Positions 2,156-38,297 of a stretch of DNA of 64,000 nucleotides are shown here, one piece after another. Position 1 is the first letter of the stretch; each line of letters starts with the position of its first letter. Where the stretch lies: positions 1 through 64,000 of the forward strand of contig JAFYLH010000026.1 of assembly GCA_017537175.1 (NCBI GenBank). Direction: 5' to 3'. The notes beneath the pieces were generated by a model. That model ran no database searches. It was not told where the DNA came from and saw nothing but the letters and a program-made list of their open reading frames with translations. The stretch comes from Clostridia bacterium. GTDB lineage: Bacteria; Bacillota; Clostridia; Oscillospirales; CAG-272. Made by a program: the position numbers and the translations under genes.

Positions 2156-3058
2156 ATGAAAAAAGTAATCTTTGCCTGTGATATAGGCGGCAGCAAATTA
2201 TTGTGCGGACTTGTTACACCTGAAGGAGAGATCATCGATAAAGAAGCGACGCCCTTTCCCGGTGATGTTACTACCGATATTATAGAAGAGTATATAATGT
2301 CCTTTTATACCAAGCTGACCCAACGCAATCCCAAATTCGTACCCTATGTATGCGGTATGACCATCCCCGGACTTGCAAATGCAGCAAAAGGAATCTGGGT
2401 CTATGCCTGCTTTTCGGGGATAAGCGATTATCCCATAGTAGAGCGGATGTCCAAAAAGCTTGATATGCCCGTATATATCGAAAATGACGTCAATGCCTGT
2501 GCTTTTGCCGAAAAGGTCTTCGGCGCTTGCCGTGACTGCGACGATTTTCTCTGGATGACCGTATCCAACGGAGTAGGCGGAGGACTTGTTCTTGAGGGCA
2601 AGGTCTACGGCGGTGCCTTTGGCGGCTCGGGAGAGATAGGCCATGTTATAGTAGAGGATAACGGCCCTGTGTGTCCCTGCGGACATCTCGGATGTATGGA
2701 GGCGGTAGCAGCGGGCCCCGGTATTGCAAGACGGTATGAAGTCATAACAGGGAAGTGGCTTTCGGCCAAGGATATCTCTGACCTTGCAAGGCAGGGAGAT
2801 GAGACTGCTATGGCGGTAATGGCAAAGACCGGAGAGTATATAGGCAAGGGTCTGGGTAAGGCTGCCAGCCTTCTCAATCTTCGCAGATATGTATTGGGCG
2901 GCGGTGTGATGCAGAGCTTTGACCTGATGGAGCCGTATATCCGTGAAGCCTTTGCAAAGGAGGCCTTTGCTTCTCCCAACAAAAATGCCGAGATTATCAC
3001 AACAGCTCTCAAATATGAGGCAGGACTTATGGGAGCGACGGCAATAGCATTGCGATAA
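2156..3058 (+). CDS. ROK family sugar kinase (glucokinase-like)
   Basis: 300 residues, the usual length for ROK kinases; no DNA-binding domain, so an enzyme rather than a NagC/XylR-type repressor. The N-terminal phosphate loop DIGGSK is at residues 9-14, the sugar-binding END motif near residue 105, GxGGG near 140, and the zinc-binding ROK signature CPCGHLGCME near 172-181. The expected reaction is ATP-dependent phosphorylation of glucose or a related hexose in the cytoplasm; glucokinase is the likeliest but ManNAc or fructose kinase cannot be excluded. It is monocistronic, with its own promoter, and is bracketed by hairpin arrays A and B. Its last codons and stop lie within a 12-bp stem hairpin (3041-3070). 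Confidence 0.9.
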   Translation: MKKVIFACDIGGSKLLCGLVTPEGEIIDKEATPFPGDVTTDIIEEYIMSFYTKLTQRNPKFVPYVCGMTIPGLANAAKGIWVYACFSGISDYPIVERMSKKLDMPVYIENDVNACAFAEKVFGACRDCDDFLWMTVSNGVGGGLVLEGKVYGGAFGGSGEIGHVIVEDNGPVCPCGHLGCMEAVAAGPGIARRYEVITGKWLSAKDISDLARQGDETAMAVMAKTGEYIGKGLGKAASLLNLRRYVLGGGVMQSFDLMEPYIREAFAKEAFASPNKNAEIITTALKYEAGLMGATAIALR

Positions 3059-3070
3059 CAATGCTATTGC
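3041..3070 (+). other. Hairpin overlapping the ROK stop codon
   Basis: GCAATAGCATTG and CAATGCTATTGC form a perfect 12-bp stem; the loop CGATAA contains the stop codon TAA. No T-run follows, so it is probably an mRNA 3'-end stabiliser or the first unit of hairpin array B. Confidence 0.75.
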
Positions 3071-3154
3071 AATGAAATGAATCCTTACGGATTCGTGAAA
3101 TGGCCTTCGGTCATAAAATAACATCTACGATGTTATGAAATGCAACTATGTTGC
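3071..3154. repeat. Hairpin array B (linker RTGAAAT)
   Basis: Four unrelated small hairpins: GAATCC-TTAC-GGATTC (3079-3094), TGGCC-TTC-GGTCA (3101-3113), TAACATC-TAC-GATGTTA (3119-3135) and GCAAC-TAT-GTTGC (3142-3154). They are separated by a linker close to ATGAAAT. Unlike arrays A and C, all linkers read in one direction. Confidence 0.8.
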
Positions 3155-3163
3155 GTTAAGGTA

Positions 3164-37341: not shown

Positions 37342-38079
37342 ATGAACATTATTGAAGCTTATCAGAAAAAAGTAGACGAGCTCTTTGCTACCGTAAGAGA
37401 GACTCAGATGGACAAGATCAGAGAAGCAGGCAAGATGATGGCTGATGCTATGTGCGCTAAGAAGAACATAGTTATTCACGATACAGGCCACATCATCAAT
37501 GGCGAAATGATCCAGCGTTCCGGCGGTCTTGTAGCACCCCAGCACCTCAGATATTACCTCGTTACCGAGGACGGCGGTCTTGTAACTCCCGAGTTCAAGG
37601 CAAAGAACCTCAATATGGAGGGTATGGCGGAGCTTGTTTACCGTTGTTCACATATGACAGGCGACGGCGACGTGCTTATTATCGGTTCTGTATCCGGCCG
37701 TAGCGACCAGGTAGTTGACCTTGCACTTACCTGTAAGAGCCATGGTGTTAAGATCATCGCTGTTACATCCATGGATTATACCACTCAGGTTAAGTCTGCT
37801 CACACAAGTGGGCTCAGACTCTTTGAGGTAGCTGACCTCGTTATCGACAACTGCGCACCTCTTGGTGACGGTATGATGGATCTCCCCGGCTTTGAAATGC
37901 CCTTCGGTCCTGCATCCGGTCTCAGCGCAGTATACATCATGTGGCAGGTTTATGCTGCTTGTATCGAGGAAATGGATAAGAGAGGCCTTAAGCCCGGTAT
38001 CCTTAAGTCCTCCAACACTCCCGGCGGCGACGAGTATAACCTCAAGCTCGAGCATCTTTACCAGGAGCGCGGGTATTAA
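37342..38079 (+). CDS. SIS-domain sugar isomerase-like protein (UPF0309-like)
   Basis: 245 residues with one SIS domain. The phosphosugar-binding serines are in IIGSVSGRSDQVVDLAL (about 115-131), and KIIAVTS follows. The length and pattern match UPF0309-type proteins found with sugar uptake or amino-sugar genes. The reaction is unknown; SIS proteins bind or isomerise phosphosugars in the cytoplasm. It sits in the middle of secreted SLH-SGNH genes and has its own promoter, so it may process a sugar released by them. Its stop codon lies at the edge of hairpin array C. Confidence 0.85.
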   Translation: MNIIEAYQKKVDELFATVRETQMDKIREAGKMMADAMCAKKNIVIHDTGHIINGEMIQRSGGLVAPQHLRYYLVTEDGGLVTPEFKAKNLNMEGMAELVYRCSHMTGDGDVLIIGSVSGRSDQVVDLALTCKSHGVKIIAVTSMDYTTQVKSAHTSGLRLFEVADLVIDNCAPLGDGMMDLPGFEMPFGPASGLSAVYIMWQVYAACIEEMDKRGLKPGILKSSNTPGGDEYNLKLEHLYQERGY

Positions 38080-38264
38080 TAATCTGCAAAGCAGATTATT
38101 AGCTAAATTCGCCACAGCTACGGCGAGCTAAATTGACCTTCGGTCAGCTAAATTACTGTGTAGCTAAATCTGCTTCGCAGGCTAAGGCGAATTTAATTTA
38201 GCTTCACGGAGTGAAATTTAGCTATGCTTGCATAATTTAGCTGTTGCGAAGCAACTATTTAGCT
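38078..38264. repeat. Hairpin array C (linker AGCTAAATT / AATTTAGCT)
   Basis: Left half: hairpins AATAATCTGC-AAA-GCAGATTATT (38078-38100), CGCC..GGCG (38110-38125), GACC-TTC-GGTC (38135-38145), a tiny AC-TGT-GT and CTGC-TTC-GCAG (38170-38180), joined by AGCTAAATT (38101, 38126, 38146, 38162). Right half: TTCAC-GGA-GTGAA (38203-38215), TATGC-TT-GCATA (38223-38234), GTTGC-GAA-GCAAC (38243-38255), joined by AATTTAGCT (38195, 38215, 38234, 38256). The linker flips to its reverse complement at the centre, with four copies on each side. Confidence 0.88.
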
Positions 38265-38266
38265 AT

Positions 38267-38297
38267 AAAAAGACGGCATCGCATTGCCGTCTTTTTT
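38267..38297 (+). terminator. Intrinsic terminator after array C
   Basis: AAAAAGACGGCA / TGCCGTCTTTTT with loop TCGCAT and a T-run; ends the SIS-gene transcript beyond the array. Confidence 0.9.

Follow-up and report, generated by a model that had tools for sequence, protein, structure and literature searches.

A mirrored array of short hairpins lies directly behind a gene for a SIS-domain protein in the window, the 64,000-nucleotide stretch of clostridial DNA that was analysed. An earlier note on this DNA regarded the array as one of a general class of elements that might be built by replication slippage or by a dedicated enzyme. In this study, we asked what kind of element this is, how widely it occurs, and how its hairpins are made and kept.

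Layout of the array in the window

The window copy spans approximately 38077-38265. It consists of a palindrome followed by four forward and four reverse linkers, with small hairpins between all of them. Its parts, its host surroundings and the other arrays in the window are listed below.

37342-38079, plus strand: upstream host gene, SIS-domain protein of 245 aa (PF13580, E 1.9e-17)
38077-38101, no strand assigned: border palindrome TAATAATCTGC-AAA-GCAGATTATTA; left arm from the SIS stop codon TAA (38077-38079), right arm abutting the first linker
38101-38170, plus strand: four forward linkers AGCTAAATT with hairpins CGCCACAGCTACGGCG, GACCTTCGGTC and ACTGTGT, the last degenerate
38104-38113, plus strand: head segment TAAATTCGCC, the first linker joined to the 5' arm of the first hairpin
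38170-38180, plus strand: hairpin CTGCTTCGCAG, placed after the fourth forward linker and before the core
38186-38195, plus strand: core GGCGAATTTA, 85 nt into the element; exact inverted repeat of the head segment
38195-38264, plus strand: four reverse linkers AATTTAGCT with hairpins TCACGGAGTGA, ATGCTTGCAT and GTTGCGAAGCAAC
38267-38296, plus strand: likely intrinsic terminator AAAAAGACGGCATCGCATTGCCGTCTTTTT of the SIS gene, directly past the element
about 1878-2055, no strand assigned: array A, a second element of the class, mirrored, linkers GTATATCATCA / TGATGATATAC
3041-3160, no strand assigned: half-array with linker ATGAAAT/GTGAAAT

The earlier note had described four linkers on each side, those on the right being the exact reverse complement of those on the left. 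The mirrored order stood, and both the hairpins between the linkers and the palindrome at 38077-38101 were confirmed as real. However, three linkers per side are exact and one carries a mismatch. The forward linkers at 38101, 38126 and 38146 are exact copies of AGCTAAATT and that at 38162 is AGCTAAATC; the reverse linkers at 38195, 38215 and 38234 are exact copies of AATTTAGCT and that at 38256 is TATTTAGCT. One 8-mer, counted on both strands, occurred 8 times within 190 bp, compared to at most 3 times in 20 dinucleotide shuffles of the whole window. A single strand of the window copy was predicted to fold far more strongly than shuffled sequences (RNA z -5.7, DNA z -5.9). In the predicted DNA fold, the forward linkers are stacked on the reverse ones and the hairpins bulge on either side.

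The array had also been placed just downstream of a transcript end. This was wrong for the window copy, which runs from the SIS stop codon to the likely terminator. Because it starts at the stop codon and ends before that terminator, the window copy probably lies inside the 3' UTR of the SIS gene. The terminator is host sequence and is also present in the sister species G004, which does not have this element there. The next gene, beyond the terminator, encodes an SLH-domain protein. As the earlier note had said, array A has the same mirrored layout with different linkers. The half-array begins with a border palindrome, GCAATAGCATTG-CGATAA-CAATGCTATTGC (3041-3071), that exactly repeats, in inverted form, the last coding bases of the ORF at 2156-3058; the stop codon of this ORF sits in the palindrome loop, and CAATGCTATTGC is followed by the linker array.

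Copies, distribution and shared plan

In the genome from which the window was taken, 63 spaced linker pairs were found, compared to none in a reversed-pattern control. These gave 15 elements, one of them split across the ends of two overlapping contigs, and every one had the forward linkers first and the reverse linkers after. The linker pair was present in 7/59 genomes of relatives and, with a patchy distribution, in 25/291 sampled genomes of the class Clostridia. A search of GTDB contigs (85,000 species genomes) gave at least 113 stretches; the 80 that were listed were all from Clostridia, mostly herbivore-gut metagenome assemblies. The array is therefore not a single-genome oddity, the outcome that would have contradicted the idea of a class. 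In a scan for any 7-mer recurring at least 3+3 times within 260 bp, 27 of the 28 clusters in the fetched loci were perfectly mirrored and none appeared in shuffled sequence; most of these loci were chosen for holding the linker, and hence the scan is a test of order, not of frequency.

Phage and plasmid records searched for the array gave no match. Viral contigs gave 120 stretches, nearly all of them one chance-like linker pair. A real-looking mirrored array was seen in one viral contig (L163, 4150-4435), near the end of this short contig, where it possibly belongs to the host flank of a prophage. Most of the genomes are metagenome assemblies, and that of the window is 93% complete (roughly 6.5% unassembled). 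An assembly artefact is unlikely, because separate assemblies show the same features. Genomes of several different families (G118, G145, G193, G228 and G330) carried the identical hairpins TTGCAACAAGTTGCAA and GAACAAGTTC, which suggests recent horizontal spread or strong constraint.

The elements are about 160-210 bp long and share one plan, in which a core separates four linkers from four inverted ones and small perfect palindromes lie between the units. Among 54 complete 4+4 elements, the number of units, the hairpin length at each position and the core length varied little. The hairpin sequences were highly variable and nearly always perfectly paired, and the linkers were constant. Counted from the border palindrome, the first linker and first hairpin arm recur inverted in the core. 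The core repeated at least 3 nt of the head hairpin arm in 40/54 elements, compared to 5/54 or fewer for any other hairpin. In a separate search, the inverted head copy was found at 78-91 nt in 38/54 elements, and the neighbouring hairpin arm, used as a control, in 8/54. Families with unrelated linkers (AGTTATGA, ATGATAT and GCGATAT), identified partly by eye, had the inverted head copy at 83-87 nt; in one AGTTATGA copy (C9 in G004) it carried a mismatch. The idea that one mirrored design with varying linkers defines a general class is thus strongly supported, given 15 copies in one genome, a patchy occurrence throughout the class Clostridia, at least four other linkers and a shared core geometry.

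Pairing of forward with reverse linkers is suggested by their complementarity across families and by the predicted folds; covariation between them within the first family gave no support (0/1 double change). Hairpin length is conserved at each position, possibly through selection for the binding of a protein or an RNA.

Several variants of the plan were also observed. In L012, L019 and L033 (G000:C17, G000:C35 and G003:C30, G000 being the window genome), a different repeat, about 48 nt long and similar to CCCCGAAGCGAGCTTGCCGAGCTTTGGGGAATGGGG, replaced or interrupted one hairpin; this repeat had four matches in the window genome. Longer hairpin composites with the successive linkers TGAATTA, ATGATGT, ATTTCAC and AATTTACC were found in L043, L052, L059 and L060 (G056 and G015), and those in G015 adjoined larger G-rich repeats. 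A complete element in L056 (G015:C127) was in tandem duplicate, including about 26 bp of the left flank. At L237 (1255-1469), ten reverse linkers without a forward half lay beside a complete element, and therefore the unit number can expand.

Host junctions and orthologous sites

The elements lie at gene ends. We examined their orientation relative to host genes that were called by a simple longest-ORF rule. By these calls, the border-side gene pointed into the element in 64/91 cases (p 1e-4), and where the flanking genes were co-directional one strand was favoured, 37 to 10. The contexts were varied and included convergent genes. In some loci (C14, L240 and L277, the latter two by eye), the border followed a promoter-like -10 box.

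The orthologous sites of 14 copies were retrieved, where findable, in five species of the genus. A separate clustering of orthologues by their flanks produced a single large cluster, joined mostly through a conserved left flank of about 350 bp; only the close pairs in it were used. In G003 the window site had an orthologous copy; in G004 a different family lay beyond the terminator. At the terminator of GroEL, the linker was AGCTAAATT in the window genome, AGTTATGA in G003 and ATGATAT in G004. At C9, it was AGCTAAATT in the window genome, AGTTATGA in G004 and ATGATAT in G003; the other three species had no recognised element. C35c had a AGCTAAATT element followed by the remains of a AGTTATGA element, which is intact in G003. 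Unoccupied orthologous sites were seen in G001, G002 and G005. As presence and absence differ at orthologous sites, these results show that the element is gained or lost there. No excision or insertion event was observed in these comparisons, and exact excision was not seen. Comparison of occupied with unoccupied sites gave no consistent target-site duplication; inverted copies of the flank were found instead.

A palindrome usually adjoins the end of the element that bears the first linker. Its inner arm repeats host sequence in inverted form, and in many cases the stem extends into a stop codon, into coding sequence or into the 3' end of a tRNA. The reach past the stop codon was 16 nt at C9, 18 at C25, 20 at GroEL in G004 and 6 at C17, and at C12 the palindrome reached the GCACCA 3' end of a tRNA. 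Where the upstream arm lies in a conserved gene and is thereby fixed, it is the downstream arm that must have been copied. The border stem entered the gene in 12/18 occupied compared to 1/23 unoccupied sites (Fisher p 2.5e-5), or 6/9 compared to 0/9 by locus (p 0.009); in these counts orthologues are non-independent, and sites at non-coding genes and ambiguous stops were excluded by hand. The sole unoccupied site with a stem into the gene had a weak 5-bp hairpin.

Differences between host sequences were mirrored in the far arm. The stop codon beside the window copy is TAA in the window genome and TGA in G003, where the right arm has the matching change (TGATAATCTGC..GCAGATTATCA). The same was found for an ACA/ACC codon at C17 and for TTT/TAT at C21a. 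Several occupied borders showed no copying into the gene (C35c, C9 in G003 and G004, and the window copy at -1), and therefore host copying may be secondary to insertion. At C33 (L018, G000:C33), the insertion apparently altered the C-terminus of the upstream protein, whose stop codon is now part of the border palindrome.

Origin of the element and comparison with known systems

We consider it probable that the array is a non-autonomous mobile DNA element, and that fold-back template switching both makes and repairs its hairpins and its junction with the host. The stems contained 1177 Watson-Crick, 11 G.T and 13 A.C pairs among 1201. Because the stems tolerate G.T no more than A.C, their composition argues for upkeep at the DNA rather than the RNA level. 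Close copies could differ by paired changes at adjacent positions, as in TTGCAACAAGTTGCAA compared to TTGAACTAAAGTTCAA with 91% flank identity. That perfect stems can arise and persist through template switching has been documented (PMC8794818), and quasipalindrome template switching can yield paired changes without G.T intermediates (PMC8794818, PMC7202029). Judged from sequence comparison, the elements bear the marks of template-switch palindromes, namely perfect arms, paired changes and inverted copies of adjacent sequence.

A single strand, exposed during replication or transcription, would form hairpins as well as helices between linkers. If a nascent 3' end stalled at the border of the element, it would fold back onto itself, use 0-20 or more bases of its upstream strand as template, and then return to the element. 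Such a fold-back by the nascent 3' end is proposed because the copy is the reverse complement of the upstream sequence and stops at the border of the element. Intrastrand template switching of this kind may also keep the arms of the internal hairpins fully complementary as their sequence changes. Spread to new gene ends may occur through a MITE-like enzyme in trans or through template switching to a distant copy. The replication slippage suggested earlier was near to this; the traces fit fold-back template switching, which gives inverted copies. The dedicated enzyme was not found. The Y1 transposase (PF01797) was undetected in the 93% complete, copy-rich window genome, and G015, which is also copy-rich, had only a match below cut-off. 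Reverse transcriptase (PF00078) was detected in neither genome, and a retroelement was therefore rejected. No autonomous partner or gene was found between separated linker half-arrays in the fetched loci.

The array could also be an ordinary MITE, that is, a deletion derivative of a transposon with joined multi-site ends that is moved by a transposase in trans, the border palindromes reflecting a target preference for terminator hairpins. The elements are short, non-coding, intergenic and multi-copy, they have terminal inverted repeats (AGCTAAATT ... AATTTAGCT), and they lie in fixed orientation beside terminators. However, this reading lacks a gene between the separated half-arrays, a Y1 transposase in the window genome and a consistent target-site duplication. 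Palindrome arms that lie in GroEL codons or at the 3' end of a tRNA are no natural target, and they are absent from most unoccupied orthologues. Target preference also leaves several linker families with one geometry unexplained. We therefore regard an ordinary MITE as rather unlikely. The element is MITE-like in being small, dispersed and protein-free; with no consistent target duplication and no partner in the fetched loci, it is at most a putative classical MITE.

A structured regulatory or 3'-UTR RNA, selected for its RNA fold, would agree with the strong folding, with the probable 3' UTR position of the window copy and with the strand bias between co-directional genes. Such a role is improbable, since stem G.T pairs were no commoner than A.C, the element was absent from orthologous genes in sister species, and its contexts were varied. 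In an Rfam search, the array had no match above the gathering score and the matches nearby were only known RNAs. Palindromes in arrays also recall REP/REPIN-type elements, which a RAYT/IS200-type Y1 (HUH) transposase or one of its relatives would mobilise by acting on hairpins in a single strand. Hairpin-based recognition is typical of this group (PMC3733652, PMC6006769). Here, the linkers are constant and the palindromes differ between copies, which is the reverse of REPs, and with no PF01797 match above cut-off in either copy-rich genome we consider this origin highly improbable. Membership of the REP/REPIN group was rejected on the variable palindromes and the undetected Y1 transposase.

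Besides the fold-back template switching that we favour, a broader proposal may be offered tentatively. The arrays might form a class of mobile DNA not known before, which encodes no protein, has no dedicated transposase and is defined by geometry and not by sequence (four linkers, core and four inverted linkers, with an inverted copy of the head at about 85 nt). Such a class would owe its spread and the rewriting of its host junctions to fold-back and template switching by the replication machinery, and at a given site one linker could be replaced by another.

No published description of such arrays was found in the open-access literature searched, and this dispersed, hairpin-rich, protein-free element of many Clostridia is apparently undescribed so far. 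The arrays provide many natural replicates of putative DNA fold-back self-copying beside, and into, coding genes, and they make the creation and upkeep of hairpins by template switching directly testable. Some copies, such as C33, seem to have altered the end of a protein. In this widespread element of gut Clostridia, the architecture is conserved and the sequence is not, so that ordinary sequence searches and repeat annotation would miss it.

Like REP, BIME and REPIN elements with RAYT, the arrays are short, intergenic, dispersed and palindromic, and they form small arrays with inverted order. The palindrome is conserved in those elements, whereas here it varies and the linker is constant. 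The arrays differ further in that no Y1 transposase was found, the core repeats the head and an inverted host copy stands at the border. Like MITEs, including the pneumococcal BOX, RUP and SPRITE, they are small, non-coding and multi-copy with inverted ends near gene ends, and elements replace or nest in one another (here C35c). In contrast to these, they have no partner transposase that we could find and no clear target-site duplication, and sequence-unrelated families share one geometry and the same sites. Group IIC introns insert directly downstream of terminator hairpins in fixed orientation. The arrays differ from them in having no intron-like sequence, and in the absence of a PF00078 match from the window genome and G015. 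The perfect inverted repeats resemble those of quasipalindrome template-switch mutation, which are created and repaired by copying the nascent or complementary strand (PMC8794818, PMC7202029). That process is known as a source of mutation, whereas here it would be a feature of a dispersed element and of its junction with the host.
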